A stretch of 41,739 nt of DNA, taken from NCBI GenBank assembly GCA_937141935.1, contig CAKZQS010000047.1:1-41739 (forward strand), given 5' to 3'. Every line of letters begins with the position of its first letter. Position 1 is the first letter of the stretch. The notes under the pieces are model-generated. The model ran no database searches and was not told the DNA's origin. It was given only the letters and a program-made list of their open reading frames with translations. Positions 949 through 12,867 of the stretch are shown piece by piece. This DNA comes from an uncultured Ectothiorhodospiraceae bacterium (GTDB lineage Bacteria; Pseudomonadota; Gammaproteobacteria; Nevskiales; Oceanococcaceae). A program made the translations under genes and the position numbers.

Positions 949-1839
949 ATGCCTGCGTATTTGAAGGCGCGTGCGCGCCTGCTGTGGCTTGGCGTGGCGC
1001 TGGGTCTGTTGGGGCCGCTGCCGGCCGCCGTGGCCGCGGATGCGAGCAAGACCGAGGCGGCCGACAGCGCGGCCGAGGCCGCGACGCCCGCCGCCGCGCC
1101 GACCACGGCTCCGGGCGAGGCCCCGCCCACGGACCTGGACAGCCTGCGCGCCTGCCTGGGCGAGAACCTGCCCGCGCAATCGCTGGTGCAGAACGTGCGG
1201 CTGATTGCCAGCGACAGCGCCGGCGGCCGCGAGCTCAAGGCCCGGGTTTACGGCATGAAGCTGGATTCCGAAACCGCCGTGATGATCGATGTGCGCGCCC
1301 CGTCCGACATGTCCGGCTCGCGCTACCTGGTCATCGCCGGGCCCGAGCGCGACGCGATGTATCTGTACATCCCGGCGCTCAACCGCACCCGCCGCGTGGT
1401 CGGCAGCATGGCCGGGCAGTCGCTCTGGGGCACCGACTTCAGCTACGAGGACATCAAGCTGCTGCGCGGCCTGCTGAACCAGGGCGTGCTGGAGGTCGAG
1501 ACCGGCCACGAGTACGAAAAGCGCCCAGCACTCAAGGTGCGCATCGACCCCACCGAGGAGGGCGCCGAGAGCCAATACAGCCAGGTGACGCTGCTGGTCG
1601 ACCAGCAGACCTGCGTCATCGTCGAGGGCCGCTTCGCCGACGAGGCCGGCTTGGCCAAGACCCTGCGCGTGGCGCCTGAGGACCTGATCGAGGTCGACGG
1701 CCGCTGGTGGGCGCAGCGCGTGCAGGTGGAAAGCCACCGGCGCAACAGCCGCTCGGAGCTGATCGTGGACGACTTCGAGTTCGACCGCGAACTGCGCGCG
1801 CGGCTGTTTGACCCGCGCTCCTTCCAGCGCGGGAGCTAG
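949..1839 (+). CDS. LolA-like outer-membrane lipoprotein-sorting family protein (PF17131 type), periplasmic
   Basis: This 296-residue protein begins with a clear Sec signal peptide (Arg/Lys-rich start, hydrophobic core to about residue 25, Ala-rich cleavage site), followed by an Ala/Thr/Pro-rich spacer to about residue 65. The rest resembles the LolA-like sorting proteins that typically sit beside MMPL/RND transporters: alternating beta strands with the blocks SRYLVIAGPERDAMYLYIP and QSLWGTDFSYEDIKLL, both typical of that family. Such proteins are thought to carry lipids or lipoproteins across the periplasm in a half-barrel. I chose ATG at 949 because a G-rich ribosome site (939-943) precedes it; a TTG at 937 is in frame. 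A TACACT box at 899-904 could be a -10 element, but no good -35 is seen. The stop is 3 bases before the transporter start, which implies coupling. Confidence 0.8.
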   Translation: MPAYLKARARLLWLGVALGLLGPLPAAVAADASKTEAADSAAEAATPAAAPTTAPGEAPPTDLDSLRACLGENLPAQSLVQNVRLIASDSAGGRELKARVYGMKLDSETAVMIDVRAPSDMSGSRYLVIAGPERDAMYLYIPALNRTRRVVGSMAGQSLWGTDFSYEDIKLLRGLLNQGVLEVETGHEYEKRPALKVRIDPTEEGAESQYSQVTLLVDQQTCVIVEGRFADEAGLAKTLRVAPEDLIEVDGRWWAQRVQVESHRRNSRSELIVDDFEFDRELRARLFDPRSFQRGS

Positions 1840-1842
1840 ACC

Positions 1843-4587
1843 ATGCCCGGCCTGGGTCCGCGCCTGGTGCGCTGGCGGCGGCCGGTGCTGGCCCTGGTGG
1901 CGCTGCTGACGCTCGGCGCGCTGCTGACGCTGATCGACTTCAGCGACCCGCGCGACCCGCGGCCCCGGCTGCGCATCGACCCGACGGTCGATCGGCTGCT
2001 CGACCCCAACAGCGCGGCGCGCGCCTTCCAGCGCAGTACCGGCGAGCTGTTCGGCGCCGAGCAGCGCGCCGTGCTGGCGGTCGCCGGCCCGGACTACTAC
2101 AGCGACACCGGCCTGGCGCTGCTGCGCGAGGTGCATGCGGCGCTGCTGGCGCTGCCGCAGATCCGCAGCGTTGAATCGCTGGCCACGGCGCCGCATGCCG
2201 CGCTGGACGAGGACGGCTTTCTGGCCATCGAGCCCTTCGCCCGGCTCCCGGCCGGCGACGCGTCCGAGCGGGCCGCGCTGCGCAGCGCGATAGCCGGCAA
2301 CCCGCTGGTGGGCGGGCAGCTGATCAGCGACGAGGGGCGCGTGGCCGCCTTCGTGCTGCAGTTCGCCGACCCGGCCGCCGCGCAGGCCGCCTTTGCCGAC
2401 GCCGATTTCGTGCCGGGGCTGAAGGCCCGCGTGCGGGCGCTGGCGCCGGGGCCGGTGGAGGTCTGGGTCACCGGGCCGGATGTGGTCAAGGCCGGGGTCA
2501 GCCGCAGCCTGGCCAGCCAGCTGCAATACATGGTGCCGCTGGTGTTGCTGCTGACGGCGCTGATCACCGCGCTGGCCTTTCGCAGCCTGCGCGGCGCGCT
2601 GCTGACGCTGCTGACCATCGGCATCGCGCTGTCCTGGACCCTGGCCTGCCTGGTGCTGCTGGACATCCCGCTGACGCTGATCAGCGCGATCATGCCGCCG
2701 GTGGTCATCACGCTGGGCCTAGCCTATGCGATGCATGTGCTGTCGACCTATTTCGGCCGCGAGCGGGCGCGCAGCCCGGATCAGCCGCCGGAGGTTGCGA
2801 CGGCGGCGGCCATCGACAGCCTGAAGTTGCCGCTGGTGCTGACCGGCCTGACCACCATCGCCGGCTTTCTGGCCCTGCTGCTGAACCCGCTGACGGCGGT
2901 CAAGGAGTTCGCCGCGCTGTCGGCGCTGGGCATAGGCATCGATGTGCTGCTGGCGCTGTGCGTGCTGCCGCTGCTGCTGCAGACCTTCCACTGCCGGCCC
3001 AAGCGCCCGCGCAGCGAGGACGCCTTCGAGACGCTGGCCAGCAAGCTGGCGGCCTTCTCGCTGCGTCACCGCCGCGCCATCCTCTGGGGCGGTGCGCTGG
3101 TGCTGCTGCTGGGCCTGCTGAGCCTGACCCGCATCGAGGTCGGCACCAACTATGTGCGCAGCTTTGACCCCGAGCACCCGGTGCGTGCCGACTTCGAGCG
3201 CATCAACGCCGAGCTGGGCGGGGTCAACAGCTTTTCCATCGTGCTCGAGGGCTTCGTCGACGACACCTTCACCGAGCCCGAGGTGCTGCGCGCCGTGCAG
3301 CGGCTGCAGGCCTGGCTGCGCGAGCAGCCGGAGGTCGGCGCCAGCGTGTCCCTGGTCGACCACCTGCGGCTGATCCAGCAGGGCTTTGGCGATGCGGTGA
3401 ACGGCGACGCGGTGATCCCCGAGAGCCGCGAGCAGACCAAGCAGCTGCTGCTGTTTGGTGCCAGCCCGGCGCTGCACACCGTGGTCGACCGGCGCCTGGC
3501 GACCTCGCGCATCGTGGTGCGCACCTACGAGGAAAACTCGGCGCTGGTGAAGTCGCTGCTGGACCGGCTGGAGCAGCGGCTGCAGCAGCTGCCCCGGCGG
3601 CTGGATGCGACGTTGACCGGCGACGCGGTGCTGCTGACCGAAACGGTGGCCGACATCGCCTCGGGGCAGTGGCTGACCGTGGGCGTGGCGGCGCTGGTGG
3701 TCTTCGTGATGCTGGCCACGCTGTTTACCTCCTGGCGGGTCGCGGCCCTGGCGATGCTGCCGAACCTGTTGCCGATCGCCGTCTATTACGGCCTGCTTGG
3801 CTTGTTCGACGTGCCCTTGAATCCGACCACCAGCCTGATCGCCTGCATCGTGCTCGGCGTGGCGGTCGACGACACCATTCACTTCCTGGTGCGCTTCAAT
3901 ACCGCCTCGCGCAGCCTGGCCAACGAGCCGCAGGCCGTGGCCGTGGCCCTGCGCGCCGTGCTGCGGCCGGTGACCTTCACCACCGTGGCGCTGTGCGCCG
4001 GTTTTGCCGTGCTCTGCCTGTCGCCGCTGCAGAACCAGGTGCAGTTCGGCGCGCTGGCGGCGGCCACGCTGGCCTTTGCCTGGGTGGGCGACGTGCTGTT
4101 CACGCCGGCGCTGGGTTCGGGCATCCGCCTGGTCACGCTGTGGGATGTGCTGCGGCTGGACCTGGGCCAGGACCCGCAGCTGTCGATCCCGCTCTTTGCC
4201 GACCTCTCGGGGCGTCAGGCGCGCACCTTCGCGCTGATGTCGCGCATCCAGGAGGTGCCGGCCGGCGCCCGGGTGATCACCCAGGGCGATGTCGCCGAGG
4301 ATATATTTGTCATCATCGACGGCCGCCTGCGGGCCTTCCTCGACCGCGAGGAGGGGCCGCGCGAACTGTCGATGATGGAGCGGGGCACGGTGATGGGCGA
4401 AGTGGGCTACTTCGGCCAGAAGCGCACGGCCAGCGTCGAGGCGATGACGCCGGCGCGCTTGCTGGTGTTCAACGGTTCCGATCTGGATGCGCTGCGGCGC
4501 CGTTACCCGCGTATTGCGGCTACGGTGTATCGCAACCTGAATCTGGCCCAGGCCCAGCGCCTGGCCAACATGGCCAAGATGATCTAG
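1843..4587 (+). CDS. MMPL/RND-family transporter with C-terminal cyclic-nucleotide-binding domain
   Basis: The protein has 914 residues. The first about 780 form a duplicated RND/MMPL permease: a first membrane helix at about 16-38, a large periplasmic loop, a helix bundle at about 229-345, a second half starting near residue 410 with another loop, and a bundle at about 606-760. The conserved GLAYAMHVLSTYF and GVAVDDTIHFLVRF segments fit the sterol-sensing-like helices of the hydrophobe exporter subgroup (HpnN/MmpL-like), which moves lipids out of the inner membrane using the proton gradient. From about residue 785 to 905 there is a cyclic-nucleotide-binding/CRP-like domain, with the phosphate-binding pattern GEVGYFG then KRTASVEA (Gly-Glu near 852, Arg near 861). 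Such a domain is unusual on an RND pump and suggests gating by cAMP or c-di-nucleotide, which is inference. A GGGAG ribosome site precedes the start. Confidence 0.88.
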   Translation: MPGLGPRLVRWRRPVLALVALLTLGALLTLIDFSDPRDPRPRLRIDPTVDRLLDPNSAARAFQRSTGELFGAEQRAVLAVAGPDYYSDTGLALLREVHAALLALPQIRSVESLATAPHAALDEDGFLAIEPFARLPAGDASERAALRSAIAGNPLVGGQLISDEGRVAAFVLQFADPAAAQAAFADADFVPGLKARVRALAPGPVEVWVTGPDVVKAGVSRSLASQLQYMVPLVLLLTALITALAFRSLRGALLTLLTIGIALSWTLACLVLLDIPLTLISAIMPPVVITLGLAYAMHVLSTYFGRERARSPDQPPEVATAAAIDSLKLPLVLTGLTTIAGFLALLLNPLTAVKEFAALSALGIGIDVLLALCVLPLLLQTFHCRPKRPRSEDAFETLASKLAAFSLRHRRAILWGGALVLLLGLLSLTRIEVGTNYVRSFDPEHPVRADFERINAELGGVNSFSIVLEGFVDDTFTEPEVLRAVQRLQAWLREQPEVGASVSLVDHLRLIQQGFGDAVNGDAVIPESREQTKQLLLFGASPALHTVVDRRLATSRIVVRTYEENSALVKSLLDRLEQRLQQLPRRLDATLTGDAVLLTETVADIASGQWLTVGVAALVVFVMLATLFTSWRVAALAMLPNLLPIAVYYGLLGLFDVPLNPTTSLIACIVLGVAVDDTIHFLVRFNTASRSLANEPQAVAVALRAVLRPVTFTTVALCAGFAVLCLSPLQNQVQFGALAAATLAFAWVGDVLFTPALGSGIRLVTLWDVLRLDLGQDPQLSIPLFADLSGRQARTFALMSRIQEVPAGARVITQGDVAEDIFVIIDGRLRAFLDREEGPRELSMMERGTVMGEVGYFGQKRTASVEAMTPARLLVFNGSDLDALRRRYPRIAATVYRNLNLAQAQRLANMAKMI

Positions 4588-4619
4588 CGGGCCGGACACG
4601 GCCCCGACGAGGAGACGAC

Positions 4620-5399
4620 ATGAGGCATGGAGGCTTCACGGCCCGCCTGCGACCCGGGCCCTGCGCCCTGTTGCTGCTGTTGCTGACGGGGGCCGGCCCG
4701 CTCGCGGCGGCGGAACCCGAGGCGGTGGAGGGCGCGCTGCAGCGCAGCCAGACCCAGGCCGCGGCCTCGCAGCAGCGCGTGGATCAGCTCGACGACGCCA
4801 CCCGCGAGGCGCTGCAGGAATACCGCGCCGCCTTGCTGCAGGCCGAGCAGCTGCGTCTGTACGAGCGCCAGCTGGCCGCCCAGCGCGACACCGTGCAGGC
4901 CCGCCTGGCCGAGGTCGATGCGGCGCTGGCCCGGCTGGAGGAAAGCCGTGGGGCGATGGTGCCGCTGCTGGTGCGTATGGCCGATGCGCTGGAGGCCTTT
5001 GTCGAGGCCGACCAGCCCTTTGACCTGGACGCGCGACGCGCCCGCGTGGCCGGGCTGCGCAACCTGCTGGCCGACCCGGAGGCGGGCCTGTCCGAGCAGT
5101 ATCGCGGCGCCTACGCCGCCTGGCAGGCCGAGGCCGCGGCCGGGCGCACGTTGGCGGCCGAGCGCGTGAACCTGCCCGGCAGCCGCAGCGGCCAGCTGGT
5201 GGACCTGGTCCGGGTCGGCCGGCTGGGGCTGTATGCGCTGGCGCTGGATGGCAGCAGCGCCTGGGTCTGGCGGCCGCAGGCGCGCGACTTCGTCGAGCTG
5301 CCGCGGGGCACCGTGCCGGCCCTGAAGCAGGCGCTGCGCGTGGCCCAGGAGCAGGCCGCGCCCAGCCTGCTGACGCTGCCGCTGGAGGCGCCGCAATGA
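4620..5399 (+). CDS. DUF3450 family periplasmic protein of TonB2-type energy complex
   Basis: The 259-residue product has a signal peptide (hydrophobic core LLLLLLTGAGPLAAA, residues about 18-32) and then a long coiled-coil-like region rich in Gln, Ala and Glu to about residue 120. A compact C-terminal domain ends with the segment SSAWVWRPQARDFVELP. This architecture and its position immediately before a long ExbB-like gene are characteristic of DUF3450, which accompanies TtpC-ExbB-ExbD-TonB systems in Vibrio, Shewanella and Pseudoalteromonas relatives. Its exact role is unknown; a periplasmic partner of the ExbB/TtpC extension is a reasonable inference. A GAGGAG site at 4609-4614 fixes the ATG at 4620. 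The stop overlaps the next start (ATGA). Confidence 0.85.
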   Translation: MRHGGFTARLRPGPCALLLLLLTGAGPLAAAEPEAVEGALQRSQTQAAASQQRVDQLDDATREALQEYRAALLQAEQLRLYERQLAAQRDTVQARLAEVDAALARLEESRGAMVPLLVRMADALEAFVEADQPFDLDARRARVAGLRNLLADPEAGLSEQYRGAYAAWQAEAAAGRTLAAERVNLPGSRSGQLVDLVRVGRLGLYALALDGSSAWVWRPQARDFVELPRGTVPALKQALRVAQEQAAPSLLTLPLEAPQ

Positions 5400-6739
5400 G
5401 GCCGCTGATCGCCGCTGCCCTGCTGCTGCTCGGCAGCACCGCCATCGCGCAGTCCGGTGGCGATGCCGCGCTGGATGCGCTGCTGGAGCAGGTGCAGGCC
5501 GAGGCGCGCGCGCAGGGCAGCACGCTGCGCGAGCGCGAGCAGGCCTTTCTGGCCCGGCGCGACGAGCAGCGCGCGCTGCTGCGCCAGGCGCGCGCCCAGG
5601 TGGCCGAACGCCAGCGCGCGGTGGACGCGCTGCGCGGGCAGATCCGCGAGCTGGGCGAAACCCTGGAGGAGCGTCAGGCCACGCTGAAGGAGCGCAGTGG
5701 CGACCTGGAGGGCGTGGCCGCCGTGCTGCGCGATGCGGCCACCGAGACCCGCGAGGCCTTCTCCGGCTCGCTGGTTACGTTGCAGGAGCCGGTGCGGCTG
5801 GACACGCTGACCGACCTGACCCGCGTCTCCGACGTGCCGGCCGCCAGCGAGCTCGAGTCGCTGTGGCTGCTGCTGCAGCAGGAGGCCACCGCGCTGGCCG
5901 CCACGCAGACGCTGCGCACCCTGGCCGCCGACGCGCAGGGCGAGCTGGCCGAACGCGAGCTGCGGCGCTACGGCGGCTTCGCGCTGCGCACGCCCGAGGG
6001 CGATTACCTGCGCTGGCGTGGCGGCGGCGCGGCGCCCGAGATCATTGCCCGCCAGCCCGAGCCCGGCCTGGTCGAACGCGCAGCCGGCAGTGCCGGTGAC
6101 GGCCTGATCGTCGACCCCACCGGCGGCCTGCTGCTGGGCCTGCAGGAGAGCCGGCCGGACCTGCGCGCGCGCATCGCCCAGGCCGGCATCATCGGCCTGA
6201 TCATCCTGGCGCTGGGCGCACTGGGCCTGCTGCTGGGCCTGATCCAGCTCGTGTACCTGGTGCTGGTGGGCGGGCGCGTGCGGCGCCAGCTCAAGGACCC
6301 GGCGCGGCCGCGGCCGAACAACCCGCTGGGCCGGGTGCTGCGGGTCGGCCAGGAGCGCGCCGGCCAGGACTTCGAATCGCTGGAGCTGGCCGCCGACGAG
6401 GCCGTGATGCGCGAGGTGCCGCGGCTGGAGCGGCTGCAGGACAGCGTGCGCCTGATCGCCGCCGTGGCGCCGCTGCTGGGGCTGCTGGGCACGGTGACCG
6501 GCATGATCGAAACCTTCCAGGCCATCACGCTCTTTGGCACCGGTGACCCCAAGCTGATGGCCGGCGGCATCAGCCAGGCGCTGATGACCACGGTGCTGGG
6601 CCTGGTGGTGGCCGTGCCGCTGCTGTTCCTGCACAGCCTGATTGTCGCCCGCAGCCGCGCCATCGTGCAGCGGCTGGACCAGCAAAGCGCCGGCCTGCTG
6701 GCCCGTATCCGCGAGGGCCGCGCGGAGGCGCTGGCGTGA
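5396..6739 (+). CDS. TtpC-like MotA/TolQ/ExbB proton-channel protein with long periplasmic coiled coil
   Basis: The protein has 447 residues: a signal peptide to about residue 18, a periplasmic part to about residue 255 dominated by Arg/Glu/Gln heptads (about 25-120), then a MotA/TolQ/ExbB domain. Membrane helices lie near 263-290, 353-375 and 391-417. The motif APLLGLLGTVTGMIETF in the second helix is the family hallmark that lines the proton path. The long periplasmic extension separates it from ordinary ExbB and matches TtpC, the fourth component needed by Vibrio TonB2 systems. It starts inside the DUF3450 stop (ATGA) and its own stop overlaps the GTG of the next exbB, so the genes are translationally coupled. 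Function: stator that converts proton flow into movement of TonB. Confidence 0.88.
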   Translation: MRPLIAAALLLLGSTAIAQSGGDAALDALLEQVQAEARAQGSTLREREQAFLARRDEQRALLRQARAQVAERQRAVDALRGQIRELGETLEERQATLKERSGDLEGVAAVLRDAATETREAFSGSLVTLQEPVRLDTLTDLTRVSDVPAASELESLWLLLQQEATALAATQTLRTLAADAQGELAERELRRYGGFALRTPEGDYLRWRGGGAAPEIIARQPEPGLVERAAGSAGDGLIVDPTGGLLLGLQESRPDLRARIAQAGIIGLIILALGALGLLLGLIQLVYLVLVGGRVRRQLKDPARPRPNNPLGRVLRVGQERAGQDFESLELAADEAVMREVPRLERLQDSVRLIAAVAPLLGLLGTVTGMIETFQAITLFGTGDPKLMAGGISQALMTTVLGLVVAVPLLFLHSLIVARSRAIVQRLDQQSAGLLARIREGRAEALA

Positions 6740-7248
6740 ACGCGCTGATCGCGGTGGCCGAGCTGATCGACCGCGGCGGGCCGCTGCTGCCGGCGCTGTT
6801 CGCCGCGGCCGTGCTGCTGTTCATGCTGACCTTTGAGCGCTATGTCGAGCTGTGGTGGGCCTGGCCGCGGCTGCGCAAGCGCCTGGTGGCGGCCTGGAAT
6901 GCCCGCGGCGACCGCCAGAGCGTGCCCGCGCACCGCGTGCGCGAGGCGCTGATCAGCGAGGCCCGGCTGCGCCTGGAGGCCACGCTGCCGGTGCTGGCGG
7001 CGATGGTGGCCATCTGCCCCTTGCTGGGCCTGCTGGGCACGGTGACCGGGATGATGACCGTCTTTGACCTGATGGCCGTGGCCGGCACCGCGGAACCGCG
7101 GGCGATGGCGTCGGGCATCTCGCAGGCCACGCTGCCGACGATGGCCGGGATGATGATCGCGCTGCCGGGGCTGTTCTTCCTGACCCGGTTGCGGGCGCGG
7201 GCGCGGCGCGCCGTCGACGCCTTCGCCGACCAGCTGGACTTCCACTGA
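6736..7248 (+). CDS. ExbB-type MotA/TolQ/ExbB proton-channel protein
   Basis: A short 170-residue ExbB2-like protein. It has three membrane segments (about 16-39, 84-112 and 128-155) and the conserved second-helix motif CPLLGLLGTVTGMMTVFDL. It lacks the periplasmic extension of the preceding paralogue, so the operon carries two members of the same family, as in TonB2 systems. The protein should assemble as a pentamer around ExbD in the inner membrane and pass the proton-motive force to TonB. GTG start within the upstream stop (GTGA); its TGA shares a base with the exbD ATG. Confidence 0.9.
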   Translation: MNALIAVAELIDRGGPLLPALFAAAVLLFMLTFERYVELWWAWPRLRKRLVAAWNARGDRQSVPAHRVREALISEARLRLEATLPVLAAMVAICPLLGLLGTVTGMMTVFDLMAVAGTAEPRAMASGISQATLPTMAGMMIALPGLFFLTRLRARARRAVDAFADQLDFH

Positions 7249-7652
7249 TGGCCGCCCGTCGCCACGACCGCCGCGAGGCCGAGCAGGGGCTGGACCTGAC
7301 GCCGATGCTGGACATCGTGTTCATCATGCTGATTTTCTTCATCGTCACGACCAGCTTCGTGCGCGAGGCCGGGGTCGAGGTCAAGCGCCCGCAGGCGGCC
7401 AGCGCGCAGAAGCAGGCGGCCACCAGCATCTATGTCGCCGTCACCGCCGACGGCGAGATCTGGGTCGACCGCAAGGCCGTCACGCTGCCGGCCCTGCGCG
7501 CCGCCGTGGCCCGCATCCGGCTGGAGAACCCCGAGGCCACCGGCGTGGTGCAGGCCGACAAGGATGCCCGCCACGGCCTCGTGGTCGACGTGATGGACGA
7601 GCTGCGCCTGGCCGGCGTGCGCGAGATCGCCGTCGCCGCGACCGGGCCCTGA
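7248..7652 (+). CDS. ExbD-type biopolymer transport protein
   Basis: The 134-residue protein shows the ExbD layout: short cytoplasmic Arg-rich N-terminus, one membrane helix (about residues 22-40) containing LDLTPMLDIVFIMLIFFIV, and a periplasmic domain ending near a conserved GVREIAVA strand. Asp22 in the helix corresponds to the essential proton-carrying aspartate of ExbD (Asp25 in E. coli). It works with the two ExbB-like proteins to energise TonB. It is coupled to the upstream gene by a TGATG overlap and followed after 13 bases by tonB. Confidence 0.92.
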   Translation: MAARRHDRREAEQGLDLTPMLDIVFIMLIFFIVTTSFVREAGVEVKRPQAASAQKQAATSIYVAVTADGEIWVDRKAVTLPALRAAVARIRLENPEATGVVQADKDARHGLVVDVMDELRLAGVREIAVAATGP

Positions 7653-7665
7653 GCGCGTCCGCAAC

Positions 7666-8334
7666 GTGCGCTGGCCCCTCGTTTTTGTCGCCGCCGCCGC
7701 GGCCGTGTTTGGCCTGTTCTGGCTGATGCACTGGCTGGTGCTGCCGCCGGAGGGCGGGCGCGGGGGTGGCGAGGCCGCGGCCACCATCGCCGTGGCGCCG
7801 CCGCCGCCGGACCAGCCCGAGGAGCAGGCCGCGGCCTCCGACCCGGTGGAGGCGCCGCCGGCGCCGCCGCAGATGCCTTCGATTGACCTGGCGATGGACG
7901 CCGGCCTGCCGCTGGCGCTGCCGCCCAGCAGCTCGCAGGCCCTGGCGGTGCCCAGCCCCGACGTCGAACTTAGCGGCGGCGCGGTCGGTGCCGCGGGCTT
8001 CGGCGGCTTCGCGCCGGGCCGGGCGGGGTTGTCGGCCGGCCGCGGCGAGCGCATCCGCGGCAGCGCGCTGGTGCCGCTGTCCACCGCGCGCCCACAGATC
8101 CCGCGGGCGGCCTTTGAGGCCGGCATCGAGGGCTTTGTCGAAGTGGTCTTTTTTGTCACCGCCGAAGGGCGGGTGACCAACATCCGCATCGTCGACGCCC
8201 AGCCCAAGGGGGTCTTTGAGCAGGCGATGATCGAGTCGATCCGCAACTGGATCTACCCGGAATCCTCCGGCGCCCGTGAGGTGCAGCAGCGCTTCGAGTT
8301 CAAGCTCGAGGACTACCAGTACAACTGGAACTGA
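7666..8334 (+). CDS. TonB family protein (TonB2-like)
   Basis: A 222-residue protein with an N-terminal membrane anchor (residues about 3-24), a Pro/Ala/Gly-rich linker (about 25-135) and a C-terminal TonB domain (about 140-222) containing GIEGFVEVVFFVTAEGRV and the end motif IRNWIYPE. The C-terminal domain should contact the TonB box of outer-membrane receptors. Unusual points: the linker is short with only a few Pro runs (PPPP and PPAPPQMP) and turns Gly-rich, and the YP motif normally preceding the TonB domain reads IP (RPQIPRAAF). GTG at 7666 is the first usable start after exbD. The stop overlaps the next ATG (TGATG). Confidence 0.88.
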   Translation: MRWPLVFVAAAAAVFGLFWLMHWLVLPPEGGRGGGEAAATIAVAPPPPDQPEEQAAASDPVEAPPAPPQMPSIDLAMDAGLPLALPPSSSQALAVPSPDVELSGGAVGAAGFGGFAPGRAGLSAGRGERIRGSALVPLSTARPQIPRAAFEAGIEGFVEVVFFVTAEGRVTNIRIVDAQPKGVFEQAMIESIRNWIYPESSGAREVQQRFEFKLEDYQYNWN

Positions 8335-10871
8335 TGCGCGCGCGCTTCCCCTTCTCGGCAGCCCTGCTGCCCGGCCTGGCGCTGGCCCTGCTGCTGGGCA
8401 GCGCGCCGACGGCGGCGCAGCAGTACCGCTCTGAGGCGCGCGGCGTGTCCGAGGAGGAGCTGCGCGAGGCCGAAGGCTTCGATGCCGAGTCGGCGCTGCC
8501 GCAGGTCAGCGACCCCTACGCCCGGGCGATGCTGCTGAGCCAGGCCGCCGCGCAGGCCCAGGCCCGCGGCGATCTAAAGCAGGCGCTGGCGCACCTGCGC
8601 GAGGCGGTGGCGCTGGATGCGCTGTCCGACTTCGCCGAGCAGCGTCTGCAGCGCGATGCCGGCATGCTGGCCGCCAAGCTCGGCGACGACGACCAGGTCA
8701 TCGCCCTGCTCAGCGGCCTGCGCGAGGGCACCGACCCGGCCGCGCTGCGCCAGCTCGCGGCCGCCTATGCGCGCAGCGAGCGCTGGCGGGAGGCCGGCGG
8801 CGTGGTGGCCACGCTGATGCAGGCCGACAAGCCCAGCACCGAGGACCGCCTGCTCGACGCCACCGTGGCCGCGCAGAACCGCGACTGGCGCCGGGTGCTG
8901 GCGCGCACCGATGAGATCCTGGCCGCGAATCCGGCCTCGGCGGAGGCCTGGACGCTGCGCATCCGCGCCCAGCTCGGCCTGGGGCGCAAGGCCCAGGCGC
9001 TGGCCAGCCGCACCGCCGCCTGGCGGCTCAAGGTCTATGTCGACGCCGAGCAACGCCTGGCCCTGGCTCGCGACTTCGCCGACGGCGGGCTGCCGCTGGC
9101 CGGCGCCAGCCTGCTGGAGGAGGGCCTGGCCAGCGGCCAGCTGGAGCGCAGCCCCGAGCAACTCGATCAGCTGGCCGCGCTGTGGCTGGCGGCCCGCGAA
9201 AACAGCGAGGCCGGCCGGGTGCTGCGCGAGCGGCTGGCGCTGGCACCCTCGGCCGAGGCCTCGGCGCAACTTGGGCGGCTGGCGCTGGACGCCGGCGACT
9301 GGGACACGGCGGCGCGCGCGCTGCGCGCCGGGCTGCGCCTGCCGCAAGCGGCCCGGCGGGCCGGCGTGGCGATGCTGCTGGGCCAGGCCGAGTTTCAGCG
9401 CGGCAACGCCGAGGCCGCCAGGCGCGCCTTCGAGGCGGCCGCCGCGCACCCGCCCTATCGCAACAGCGCGCAGCAGTGGGTGGACTATCTGACCTCCGGC
9501 CAGGCCTCGGCGCGCGCCGTGGCGGGCCAGGCCGTGGGGCAGGGCGAGGCACAGCGGCGCAGCCTGTCGCGCATCGAAGGCGCCGGCGCGCGGCCCGGTC
9601 AGGGACAGGGACAGGGGATCGGCGGCTTCACCCCGGTGGGCGCCGAGGCCGCGGGCAGCGCCGACGGGCGCATCCCGCCCTGGACCGGCGGGCTGGCGCA
9701 GGACGATGACGCCCAGTCCAACCCCTATGCCGACGACGCGCCCATCGCCAAGATCACCGCCGCCACGATGCAGGAATGGCGGCCCTGGCTGGCGCCGGGC
9801 CACGAGGCGCTGCTGCGGCGCATGCCCGAGCACGCGCTGCATGTTTACCCCAGCCGGCGCAGCGTGGCCTACCCCGAGGCGATCTACGAGGCCACGCAGA
9901 AAAACCGCGGCCGGGCGCGGCTGCTGGGCTCGGATGCGCTGTCCGGCGCAAGGCTGGGCTTTCCCTTCCCGGCGCCGGATAACGGCGTCGAGGCCATGTG
10001 GAACCACCGCCTGCGCTGGCGCGGCGAGGCCACGCGGCGCAAAGGCGAACAGGCCGTCGTGGGCCCCGAGGGCGAGATACGCAACACGCTGGTGCAGTAC
10101 GAGGAGATGTTGGCGCGCTACGCCCACCTGAGCGACCCGGCGGACCTGGCCCGCGAGAACATCCTGCTCTATTACCTGACCACCTTCGGCTCCGGCCGTG
10201 GCAGCCCGGACTTCACCGTGCTGGTGCACGAGAGCGCCAATTCGCTGGAGCGGGCGCGGGCCATCTGGGTGTTGCCCAAGAGCTTCAAGAAGATGTTTCG
10301 CATCCCGCCGGTGGGCTATGACAACCCCTTCCCGGGCTCGGAGGGGCTGTTCTATGTGGACATGGTCGACATGTACAACGGCGCCTTTGACCATTACGAC
10401 TGGAAGCTGGCCGGCAAGCGCGAGCTGCTGGTGCCCTACAACGCCTTCGCCGCCCAGGATTACGGCGCGGAATCCGGCCCGCGGGGGCTGCTGCACGCCG
10501 GCGCACCCAACCCCGAGGCCCTGCGCTACGAGGTGCACCGCGTCTGGGTGATCGACGCCACCGAGCGCAAGGGCGCCTCGCATATGTTCGGCGTGCGCCG
10601 CTTCTACCTGGACGAGGATTCCTGGAATGTGGTGCTGGTCGAGAACTACGACCGCATCGGCCAGCTCTGGCGGCTGCAGGAGGGGCACCTGCTGCCCAAT
10701 CGCCGGCTGCAGTCGGCCGACAGCACGCCCACGATCACCTACGACCTCAAGGACGGGCGCTATTTCGCCCAGCGCATGACGGCCGCCTTCGGGCCCGGCG
10801 AGTCGATTGAGCCGCCGCCGGACAAGGGGGACTACCGCCCGGCCAACGTGCGCATGCGTTACGCCCGCTAG
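8334..10871 (+). CDS. Secreted fusion protein: TPR-like solenoid joined to DUF1329 domain
   Basis: This 845-residue protein starts with a signal peptide (to about residue 28, Ala-rich cleavage). Residues about 40-385 are tandem helix pairs of TPR character (for example LSQAAAQAQARGDLKQALAH), as in the TPR protein that ends TonB2 operons. A Gly/Gln/Pro-rich linker (about 395-428) leads into a complete DUF1329 domain (about 430-845) with the family start signature FTPVGAEAAG...IPPWTGG, a central FPFPAPDNGVEAMWNHRLRW block and the late FYLDEDSWNVVLVENYD block. DUF1329 proteins are periplasmic or outer-membrane-associated, of unknown function, and usually encoded beside DUF1302 and MMPL genes. 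The frame is continuous and codon use is uniform, so this is a true fusion. It suggests DUF1329 acts directly with the TonB complex. The 90-base gap downstream has a GC hairpin without a T tract. Confidence 0.85.
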   Translation: MRARFPFSAALLPGLALALLLGSAPTAAQQYRSEARGVSEEELREAEGFDAESALPQVSDPYARAMLLSQAAAQAQARGDLKQALAHLREAVALDALSDFAEQRLQRDAGMLAAKLGDDDQVIALLSGLREGTDPAALRQLAAAYARSERWREAGGVVATLMQADKPSTEDRLLDATVAAQNRDWRRVLARTDEILAANPASAEAWTLRIRAQLGLGRKAQALASRTAAWRLKVYVDAEQRLALARDFADGGLPLAGASLLEEGLASGQLERSPEQLDQLAALWLAARENSEAGRVLRERLALAPSAEASAQLGRLALDAGDWDTAARALRAGLRLPQAARRAGVAMLLGQAEFQRGNAEAARRAFEAAAAHPPYRNSAQQWVDYLTSGQASARAVAGQAVGQGEAQRRSLSRIEGAGARPGQGQGQGIGGFTPVGAEAAGSADGRIPPWTGGLAQDDDAQSNPYADDAPIAKITAATMQEWRPWLAPGHEALLRRMPEHALHVYPSRRSVAYPEAIYEATQKNRGRARLLGSDALSGARLGFPFPAPDNGVEAMWNHRLRWRGEATRRKGEQAVVGPEGEIRNTLVQYEEMLARYAHLSDPADLARENILLYYLTTFGSGRGSPDFTVLVHESANSLERARAIWVLPKSFKKMFRIPPVGYDNPFPGSEGLFYVDMVDMYNGAFDHYDWKLAGKRELLVPYNAFAAQDYGAESGPRGLLHAGAPNPEALRYEVHRVWVIDATERKGASHMFGVRRFYLDEDSWNVVLVENYDRIGQLWRLQEGHLLPNRRLQSADSTPTITYDLKDGRYFAQRMTAAFGPGESIEPPPDKGDYRPANVRMRYAR

Positions 10872-10961
10872 GCGCGGCGGGCCAGGCATGCTGCCCACCC
10901 CCGAGCGGGCCGGGGTGGTGCGCATGGCACAATCGCGGCCCATTCGCGCCACGGGCAGGGC

Positions 10962-12332
10962 ATGGCCGGAACTAAGCGGGAGCTGGAGCGCTTGCGGACC
11001 AAACCGATCGAACGCAACTGGGCAATGACCCGCATGGGCCTGGGCACGGGCGTGCGCGCCGCCGGCCATGTGATGGGCAATTTGTTCCGCGACTCGGCCG
11101 CGCGCGAGGACGCCGACCGGGCCTTCTACAACGCCGAGGCCGAGCGCCTGGTGGCGCAGCTGGGCGAGCTGAAGGGCTCGGTGATGAAGGCCGGGCAGAT
11201 GCTCTCGCTCTACGGCCAGTACTTCATGCCGCCGGAGGCGGTGGACATCCTGGCGCAGCTGCAGGACGACACCGACCATGTCGGCTGGCACATCGTCGGC
11301 CCGGTGGTCGACCGCGCGCTGGGGCCCGAGCGCATGGCCGAGCTGGAGATCGAGACCCGGCCGCTGGCCGCCGCCTCGCTGGGCCAGGTGCACCACGCGC
11401 GCAAGCGCGGCGACGAGCGCCCGCTGGTCGCGAAGATCCGCTACCCCGGCGTGGATGAGGCCATCGACTCGGACATCCGCACCATCGCCCGGCTGCTGTC
11501 GCTGTCGCGGCTGGTGCCCAAGGATCTGTCGCTGGACCCGGTACTGACCGAGGTGCGCGAGATGCTGCACCGCGAAGTGGACTATGTGCACGAATGCGAG
11601 ATGCTGCAGCGCTTCCGCAGCCTGCTCGACGGCGATGCGCGCTTCGTGGTGCCCGAGCCGCTGCCGCGCTATTCCAGCAGCGAGCTGCTGGTGATGACCT
11701 ACGAGGAGGGCGTGCCGGTCAAGGCGGCCGACCTCGCCGAGGTGCCGGAGGCCCGTCGGGTGCGGCTGGCGCAGGCGGCGCTGTGGCTGTTCCTGCAGGA
11801 GCTGTTTGTCTGGCACCTGGTGCAAACCGATCCGCACTTCGGCAATTACCGGCTGCGGCTGGACCCCGAGGGCGGCGCGGACCCGGACGGCGCGCAGGAC
11901 CAGTGGGTGCTGCTGGACTTCGGCGCCACGCGCAGCTTCCCGCCCACATTCGTGCGCGATTACGCGCGCATCGTGCGCGGCGCGCTGGAGGGCGAGCGCG
12001 AGCAGGTGATTCGCGGCGCCGTGGGCATCGGCCTGATGCGCGCGCACTTCCCCGAGAACGTCAAGGCGGGCTTTTACGAGCTGACCCAGCTGATCACCGA
12101 GCCCTTCCGCGGCGGCGATTACGACTGGGGCGCCTCGGATCTGCCGGCGCGGGTCAGCCAGTCGATTGCGCGCAACGCGCTGACGCGGCACTTCAAGATT
12201 CCGCCGCGCGAGATCGTGTTCCTGCACCGGCGTCTGGCCGGCGTGTTCATCACGCTGGCGCGCCTCGATGTGCGCTTCGACGGCCGGCCGCTGCTCGAGG
12301 AGGCGCTGTCACGGGCCGAGGCCATCGAGTAA
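10962..12332 (+). CDS. AarF/ABC1/UbiB-family atypical kinase
   Basis: The 456-residue protein carries the ABC1 signatures: KGSVMKAGQMLS (about residue 71, the KxGQ motif), the Ala-rich nucleotide loop AAASLGQVH (about 135-143) replacing a Gly-rich loop, the VAK lysine (near 157), EVDYVHECEMLQRF, a catalytic QTDPHFGNY with Asp290, and LLDFGATRSF with metal-binding Asp319. Known members (UbiB, Coq8/ADCK) support ubiquinone synthesis through an ATPase or kinase activity at membranes. This protein lacks the C-terminal membrane helices of UbiB and is shorter, so it is probably the soluble AarF-like paralogue found in many proteobacteria rather than UbiB itself. Its substrate cannot be told. It precedes a START-like DUF2505 gene by 43 bases, probably in one transcript. 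Confidence 0.88.
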   Translation: MAGTKRELERLRTKPIERNWAMTRMGLGTGVRAAGHVMGNLFRDSAAREDADRAFYNAEAERLVAQLGELKGSVMKAGQMLSLYGQYFMPPEAVDILAQLQDDTDHVGWHIVGPVVDRALGPERMAELEIETRPLAAASLGQVHHARKRGDERPLVAKIRYPGVDEAIDSDIRTIARLLSLSRLVPKDLSLDPVLTEVREMLHREVDYVHECEMLQRFRSLLDGDARFVVPEPLPRYSSSELLVMTYEEGVPVKAADLAEVPEARRVRLAQAALWLFLQELFVWHLVQTDPHFGNYRLRLDPEGGADPDGAQDQWVLLDFGATRSFPPTFVRDYARIVRGALEGEREQVIRGAVGIGLMRAHFPENVKAGFYELTQLITEPFRGGDYDWGASDLPARVSQSIARNALTRHFKIPPREIVFLHRRLAGVFITLARLDVRFDGRPLLEEALSRAEAIE

Positions 12333-12375
12333 CCTGTCGCCGGCCAACAACAACACGCAAGCCGGGGAGAACACG

Positions 12376-12867
12376 ATGGCGACGCAATTCGACGACACGC
12401 AGACCTTCACCCAGGACGCCGACACCGTGATGCGGATGTTCTGCGACCGCAGCTACTTCGAGCGCAAGTATCAGCAAACGGCGGAGTCCTACGAGATCCT
12501 CGAATGTGAGCAGACGGCGGACCACTTCCGCATCAAGGCGCGGCTGAAGATGCGCTCGAGCGCGCCGCTGCCCGGCTTTGCCAAGAAGTTCGTGGCCGAG
12601 ACGATGACGGTGGTGCAGGAAGACAGCTGGGATGCCAACACCCGGCGGGGCCAACTCAGCGTCGAGATCGCCGGCGCGCCGGTGTCGATCCAGGCCGACA
12701 TGGCGCTGGTCGAACAAGGCGAGGGCGCGGCGAATAAAATGCACTGGACGGTCACCTGTAAGGTGCCGCTGGTCGGCGGCAAGCTGGAAAAGCTGATCGC
12801 CGACGACATCCGGCAAAAGGCGCCGCGTGACCTCGAGGTCAGCCGCGAACTGGTCGCCGACTACTAG
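12376..12867 (+). CDS. DUF2505 (START/SRPBCC-like) protein
   Basis: A 163-residue protein without signal peptide or membrane helix. The start (DDTQTFTQDADTVMRMFCD), the middle GFAKKFVAETMTVVQED and the end block VGGKLEKLIADDIRQK match the DUF2505 pattern, a small helix-grip fold of the START/SRPBCC type expected to bind a hydrophobic ligand. Its function is unknown. A GGGGAG ribosome site at 12364-12369 supports the ATG at 12376. The adjacency to an ABC1 kinase recalls the Coq8-Coq10 (START protein) partnership in ubiquinone metabolism, which is an inference only. Confidence 0.8.
   Translation: MATQFDDTQTFTQDADTVMRMFCDRSYFERKYQQTAESYEILECEQTADHFRIKARLKMRSSAPLPGFAKKFVAETMTVVQEDSWDANTRRGQLSVEIAGAPVSIQADMALVEQGEGAANKMHWTVTCKVPLVGGKLEKLIADDIRQKAPRDLEVSRELVADY

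Follow-up and report, generated by a model that had tools for sequence, protein, structure and literature searches.

A TonB2-type gene block with a LolA-fold DUF1329 domain in its TPR subunit, and its likely partnership with an MMPL pump module

The stretch of DNA analysed here (the window) is a 41,739 nt contig, C47 of the 3.57-Mb draft genome (G000) of an uncultured gammaproteobacterium. Between positions 949 and 10871 it carries eight genes on the forward strand, identified by Pfam in the order LolA-like, MMPL, DUF3450, TtpC-type, ExbB, ExbD, TonB and TPR-DUF1329, and the last of these is a genuine fusion, encoding a protein of 845 amino acids that consists of a TPR array, a disordered linker and a DUF1329 domain. 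The explanation that we favour, with a probability of about 0.45, is that these genes form two coupled modules, namely a TonB2 system with a LolA-fold domain in its TPR subunit and a shuttle for a hydrophobic molecule made up of the LolA-like protein and an MMPL pump with a cyclic-nucleotide-binding (CNB) domain. The intergenic gaps (in order 3, 32, −4, −4, −1, 13 and −1 nt) fall between −4 and 32 nt, and the set is therefore operon-like by spacing and strand, bearing out the tight, co-directional arrangement described in an original prediction made from the sequence alone; the start assigned there to the LolA-like gene, ATG 949, is possible, as is TTG 937. The features of the set are as follows.

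949 to 1839, + strand: LolA-like periplasmic protein (PF17131, Pfam E 3.3e-33), N terminus signal-peptide-like by eye
1843 to 4587, + strand: MMPL/RND inner-membrane pump (MMPL E 2.4e-29) with C-terminal CNB domain (cNMP_binding E 3.7e-15, residues 803-887)
4620 to 5399, + strand: TtpB-type periplasmic protein (DUF3450), 259 amino acids from ATG 4620 (Pfam E 3.9e-60)
5396 to 6739, + strand: TtpC-type protein with signal-peptide-like start, long N-terminal part and MotA/ExbB domain (Pfam E 2.2e-29)
6736 to 7248, + strand: ExbB (MotA_ExbB E 4.3e-24)
7248 to 7652, + strand: ExbD (Pfam E 5.5e-31)
7666 to 8334, + strand: TonB (TonB_C E 5.1e-10; TIGR01352 45.8 bits against a cut-off of 27.1)
8334 to 9533, + strand: fusion protein, TtpD-type TPR array, residues 1-400 including a signal-peptide-like start (about 20 predicted helices)
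9534 to 9632, + strand: fusion protein, disordered linker, residues 401-433 (predicted local distance difference test, pLDDT, below 50 at 400-433)
9633 to 10871, + strand: fusion protein, DUF1329 domain (Pfam E 3.4e-95)

DUF1329 and DUF3450 still carry the names of domains of unknown function. With DUF3450, TtpC, ExbB, ExbD and TonB in one block, the window would on sequence grounds be classed as encoding a TonB2 (TtpB/TtpC-containing) system, and the anatomy of the locus shows this module to be TtpB(DUF3450)-TtpC-ExbB-ExbD-TonB together with a TtpD that carries the LolA-fold DUF1329 domain. The same genome also has an ordinary TonB2 operon on contig C4, the final TPR protein of which (an open frame of 426 codons) is without DUF1329; the N-terminal half of the fusion scores 59 bits against this protein, as expected from the earlier claim that the end protein has the TPR module of TonB2 operons, and the TPR part scores 19-81 bits against the TPR proteins of the control TonB2 blocks described below. 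The TPR part thus appears to be related to TtpD, by way of the TPR proteins of ordinary TonB2 blocks rather than Vibrio TtpD2 itself, and this kinship rules out a chance TPR array beside DUF1329. In an AlphaFold model of the whole fusion protein (pLDDT 82.4; predicted template modelling score, pTM, 0.53) about 20 helices occupy residues 51-400, the 10-residue mean pLDDT being 81-96 across residues 51-390, and the DUF1329 domain is separate from the TPR part, the mutual placement of the two not being fixed by the model.

Modelled alone with 57 relatives (a Stagnimonas fusion at 51% identity, the remainder at 35-40%), the DUF1329 domain gave a pLDDT of 90.2 and a pTM of 0.92. Residues 123-421 of this model (fusion residues 549-845) superpose on LolA3 of Porphyromonas gingivalis (9tp6; Z 21.6, root-mean-square deviation 2.7, 238 of 239 residues; Foldseek, VIA-align), with further matches to 4z48, deposited as DUF1329 (Z 18.9), 3bk5 (18.8), 3buu (15.2), P. 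gingivalis LolB (11.2) and classical LolA/LolB (about 7-8). The domain is accordingly modelled as a LolA-superfamily fold, with the incomplete beta-barrel of the LolA type; the DUF1329 profile retrieved nothing significant from the PDB sequences (best E 0.11), whereas the fold search did match. For the LolA-like protein the closest PDB sequences are 9tp6 (3.6e-9) and 4z48 (5e-9), and the PF17131 profile weakly matches DUF1329 genes (e.g. 42.6 bits at G012:C7 and 36.7 at G000:C24). Since the two share 9tp6 as nearest solved relative and PF17131 extends to DUF1329, two domains of the LolA superfamily are encoded at the locus, of which one is a free-standing protein and the other belongs to the TPR subunit of the TonB2 block. 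Inspection by eye for a lipobox cysteine of the kind that anchors LolB found no cysteine in the first 45 residues of either the fusion or the LolA-like protein.

The fusion was found in 59 of 85 genomes of the order, a recurrence that rules out an assembly artefact or accidental fusion; it aligned only in part in G007, where the contig ends, G016 and G021. In a sample of 369 genomes of the class, scores at the level of the fusion were reached only in G000, G001, G195 and G311, the last two being of one genus in another family, and in a sample of the phylum only in the window's own genome (1/398; 0/397 others at E 1e-95). Absences in these two wider samples are soft, the two best candidates per genome having been scored there, as against up to 10-11 in the searches of the order. 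In all, 61 fusion loci were annotated, 60 of which, from 59 genomes (57 of the order and two of the other family), enter the neighbourhood tallies; these leave out G007, in which the contig ends inside the fusion (locus L155), and G016, for which no neighbourhood was retrieved, both being counted as fusion genomes all the same. A TonB gene precedes the fusion in 60 of 60 uncut loci, and where more than 4.5 kb lies upstream DUF3450, TtpC, ExbB and TonB precede it in 54 of 54 and ExbD in 51 of 54. At five loci from two families (L153, L154, L156, L169 and L170) the spacing between ExbB and TonB is too tight for an ExbD gene. G083 has two TPR-DUF1329 fusion loci (L179 and L183).

Ordinary TonB2 blocks provide a comparison. 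Twenty such blocks from 20 genomes of the order were picked by hand among the matches listed; 18 end in a TPR protein without DUF1329 and two (L247 and L257) are cut before the TPR gene. The 10-18 kb fetched around these blocks held no DUF1329 gene, and neither there nor around two more TonB blocks from G000 (L167 and L168) was an MMPL or LolA-like gene found. Against the window's TonB, the TonB proteins of 59 fused loci score 97-341 bits and those of the control blocks 24-69, leaving out a stray frame that scored 16. In a TtpC tree the fused blocks are grouped, the labels changing 2 times where shuffling gives 18.3 changes, and 17 of 21 control rows form one clade, the other four being nested among the fused rows. 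Some ordinary blocks have two adjacent ExbD frames (L251, L252, L258, L259 and L260), and all of these except L252 branch among the fused blocks in that tree. The L168 block (L168:8149-11257, on contig C19 of G000) is a third and divergent TtpC/ExbB/ExbD/TonB-like block, near which the opposite strand carries a 732-amino-acid frame resembling a TonB-dependent receptor by eye. DUF1329 genes outside the fusion present a different picture: the statement that DUF1329 is usually encoded near MMPL genes agrees with 29 of 79 non-fusion DUF1329 loci (61 of them at least 21 kb long, others shorter), and a TonB-block gene occurs in 0 of these 79, on which ground an ordinary Ame-type cassette was rejected as an account of the fusion.

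The MMPL pump belongs to a module that is separate from the TonB2 block and comprises the LolA-like gene, the MMPL-CNB gene and often a nucleotide cyclase gene. The window's pump scores 166.7 bits against TIGR00921 (HAE3), below the curated cut-off of 351.9, and well above the cut-off of Pfam MMPL. Its CNB motif GEVGYFGQKRTASV has the Glu and Arg that we take to be the phosphate-binding cassette residues of CRP-type CNB domains. Among 42 distinct MMPL-CNB loci (pump matches of at least 400 bits), the cassette pattern G-E ... R-T/S-A was recognized by eye in 41, L228 lacking it, and 39 have a LolA-like gene no more than 400 bp upstream of the pump gene. Several related genomes, G001, G002 and G021 among them, encode a class III nucleotide cyclase-AAA-TPR protein just before the LolA-like gene; such a cyclase gene occurs within 6 kb upstream of the pump in 18 of the 42 loci, was not found on checking G044, G020 and G042, and could not be judged from the short stretches available for the window, G026 and G064. 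Examples are L209:4103-7366, L189:424-7102, L216:4227-10660 and L221:11318-14848, and the gene is present twice in tandem in G005 and G058. Judged by eye, 18 such cyclases, taken from 16 genomes, all retain both presumed metal-binding Asp residues and the Arg that we assume to be functional, and 10 retain the presumed catalytic Asn. Control of an RND/MMPL pump by cyclic nucleotides from a neighbouring cyclase is a possibility. Elsewhere in the window's genome (L166:6014-9146, contig C39) another MMPL gene precedes a LolA-like gene, an order opposite to that of the window, and none of the genes labelled in the 18 kb fetched there belongs to a TonB block.

The pump and the fusion tend to be kept together. 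Across the 85 genomes of the order, 57 have both, 5 the pump alone, 2 the fusion alone and 21 neither; that is, an MMPL orthologue is present in 57 of 59 fusion genomes and the fusion in 57 of 62 MMPL genomes (Fisher p 3e-13, rising to 4e-4 once the two genera with neither gene are set aside; the genomes are not independent). The two lie on the same contig in 28 of the 57 genomes and on different contigs in 29, and in 27 of the 28 same-contig cases, from 13 genera, the pump is upstream and on the same strand, the exception being G028. In the class sample a full-length MMPL-CNB match was obtained in 21 of 369 genomes, including all four fusion genomes. Outside the order, the two fusion genomes (G195 and G311) hold the two best MMPL-CNB matches, which, both being from one genus, amount to one independent case; in G195 the cyclase, LolA-like and MMPL-CNB genes stand together on a contig other than that of the fusion. 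The proposal that DUF1329 is tied to both motor and exporter can thus be kept for the motor in the strict sense of a conserved fusion, and for the exporter in the looser sense of co-occurrence and gene order.

Several observations weigh against the favoured explanation. Pump and TonB block stand side by side in only four of the 57 genomes (G000, G001, G002 and G021), three of the window's own family and one of another; 44 lack this adjacency, and 9 could not be judged because of contig ends or unfetched stretches. Gaps of a few kilobases between pump and TonB genes hold other genes, including an SDR enzyme or GreA/GreB in three loci tested. Pump and fusion occur singly in the five and two genomes given above (of these seven, G063 and G065 are less than 90% complete), the phyletic counts are inflated by shared ancestry, and no MMPL gene lies near the fusion at L169, a locus of the other family with long flanks. 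ExbD was not found between ExbB and TonB at the five tightly spaced loci, and the fused blocks are not one clean clade in the TtpC tree, which leaves a single clean origin unsupported. No outer-membrane receptor is encoded in the operon. Of the cyclase, finally, it must be said that it accompanies only 18 of the 42 pumps and that the presumed catalytic Asn is replaced in 8 of 18 cyclases compared. Direct adjacency is rare, although the pump accompanies the fusion in 57 of 59 genomes; to read the set as a single operon claims too much, and what is supported is functional coupling of the pump and the TonB2-fusion block. The single trans-envelope machine originally envisaged hence survives as a functional link and not as one conserved eight-gene operon; likewise, the independent movement of the two gene sets that was to count against it is seen in part for the operon and is not seen for the functional link. 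The pump module and the TonB module are better regarded as two partners in a single pathway than as an obligate operon.

The genes that flank the eight-gene set in the window are as follows.

1 to 882, + strand: partial gene, last 294 codons, cut by the contig edge at base 1
10962 to 12332, + strand: ABC1/UbiB-like atypical kinase (Pfam ABC1 E 5.5e-47)
12373 to 12867, + strand: DUF2505 protein (Pfam E 3e-35)

The partial gene may encode the C-terminal end of a class III nucleotide cyclase-AAA-TPR protein, to judge from its position, at which G001, G002 and G021 have such a cyclase gene; the link in sequence is weak: alignment z values are 4.5 (G002), 8.3 (G009) and −0.3 (G001), 14 of the 18 cyclases giving 2.0 at most, and the score against a cyclase profile is a weak 12 bits. 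Downstream of the fusion, in the 46 loci with more than 6.9 kb, ABC1/UbiB-like genes are found in 33 (all 33 on the same strand), DUF2505 genes in 30 and a separate DUF1329 gene in 22. One or two separate DUF1329 genes often lie between the ABC1/UbiB-like and DUF2505 genes (L122, L126, L172, L173 and L174; the corresponding region of the window is 10962-12867). Eight other window genes tested are housekeeping genes, e.g. those for poly(A) polymerase, pantoate ligase, PGI, HflK and DnaB.

Among the other explanations, the one that fares best, doubtful as we consider it, is import: the TonB2 block would energize distant TonB-dependent receptors, or work with DUF1302 barrels, in the uptake of hydrophobic nutrients, with DUF1329 as periplasmic acceptor and the MMPL pump exporting excess or toxic intermediates. 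Vibrio vulnificus requires its TonB2 system to take up siderophores, and TtpB2 and TtpD2 are indispensable for this system (PMC6957404); in Castellaniella, the DUF1329 protein AmeB and the RND pump AmeD are made together with the DUF1302 protein AmeA in monoterpene metabolism, and an ameB insertion reduces growth on monoterpenes (PMC6394551); and in Thalassolituus an MMPL/LolA-like protein, TOL_3187, raised 42-fold, and a TonB receptor increase on C28 alkane (PMC6304351). The window's genome has at least five DUF1302 matches, and G005 has a DUF1302 gene some 6.8 kb past its fusion, in both cases among the matches listed. Against import, the operon has neither a receptor nor a DUF1302 gene (no DUF1302 barrel or AmeC gene is among the genes identified from 949 to 12867), and it is to the motor, rather than to a barrel, that DUF1329 is fused.

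Rather unlikely, in our estimation, is that the window holds two unrelated modules that are neighbours by ancestral gene order only, DUF1329 being merely a diversification of the TPR subunit. Such a history would suit the distances from pump end to fusion start on one contig and strand, which range from 3.7 to 193 kb, the seven of 85 genomes (some incomplete) with one and not the other, and the 17 of 369 class genomes with a full-length MMPL-CNB match and no fusion detected among the two best candidates scored per genome. It sits less well with the paired absences, G003 lacking both pump and fusion while G002 of the same genus has both, and G053 also lacking both; with the presence of the pump, on another contig, in both fusion genomes of the other family; and with the control TonB2 blocks, which are without a pump in the stretches fetched. 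Improbable, lastly, is a role in envelope upkeep, in which force would move membrane lipids or lipoproteins in Tol-Pal-like fashion or for lipid homeostasis with the ABC1 kinase and DUF2505 protein as partners: those conserved neighbours, the LolA-like nature of both carriers and the LolA/LolB paralogues of Flavobacterium, which serve in a flexirubin operon and for lipoproteins (PMC11885536), speak for it, and the lack of TolA, TolB or Pal among the operon genes identified by Pfam and of a detected fusion in 26 of the 85 genomes, which shows that the system is not universally needed, speaks against it.

The two-module arrangement that we favour resembles known systems in parts. In Vibrio, the TonB2 genes begin with ttpB2 and run in the order TtpB2-TtpC2-ExbB2-ExbD2-TonB2-TtpD2. 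The window shares with that system the subunit families DUF3450, TtpC, ExbB, ExbD, TonB and a TPR protein (PMC6957404), and differs in the DUF1329 domain on its TPR subunit and, in the four genomes with direct adjacency, in the MMPL and LolA-like genes directly upstream. With AmeABCD of Castellaniella (PMC6394551) it has in common a DUF1329 protein, of the LolA superfamily, alongside an RND pump of the HAE3 kind; in contrast, the window's operon is without a DUF1302 or AmeC-like gene, its DUF1329 is fused to a TonB2 subunit and its pump has a domain for binding cyclic nucleoside monophosphate (cNMP). Among the LolA/LolB carriers, LolA3 of P. gingivalis (PMC13103446) is matched by the LolA-like gene in sequence and by DUF1329 in modelled fold, but the window's proteins have no early cysteine and their partner is an RND pump, not the LolCDE ABC transporter. 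In TOL_3187 an MMPL part is likewise joined with a LolA-like part, there within one protein, and no TonB2 block or CNB domain is mentioned in the available part of the report (PMC6304351). Among the open-licence papers listed, no title or abstract on a TPR-DUF1329 fusion or a cNMP-binding MMPL protein was found, and PMC12204202 uses neither TtpC nor DUF as a term. The novelty lies in a variant of TonB2 whose TPR subunit incorporates a LolA-fold carrier, together with an unexpected CNB domain on the pump.

As motor and pump are mostly kept together in related genomes, they probably handle the same hydrophobic molecule in the cell envelope. Our working hypothesis is that the MMPL protein would be gated by cNMP and would use the proton motive force to extract this molecule from the inner membrane, and that within the periplasm the LolA-like protein would shield and carry it; the DUF1329 domain, which the TPR array would anchor to the TonB2 complex, would accept or donate the same cargo, and the force of TonB would drive a step at the outer membrane, either opening a receptor or acting on the carrier. 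Import by the reverse route is a possible alternative direction. To our knowledge, TonB is usually thought to pull on outer-membrane receptors only. A bolder form of the hypothesis, which we regard as unlikely, is that TonB acts directly on the tethered LolA-fold carrier, making the system a mechanical shuttle for hydrophobic molecules that is fed by the cNMP-gated MMPL pump and dispenses with a classical receptor.

What powers the passage of hydrophobic molecules through the periplasm and the outer membrane of Gram-negative bacteria is a largely open question. With a LolA-fold carrier covalently joined to a TonB2 subunit in a conserved fusion, it becomes testable whether the energy of TonB acts on the carriage of lipids, and the CNB domain on an RND/MMPL pump, with a cyclase gene nearby in 18 of the 42 loci, constitutes a testable signalling input.

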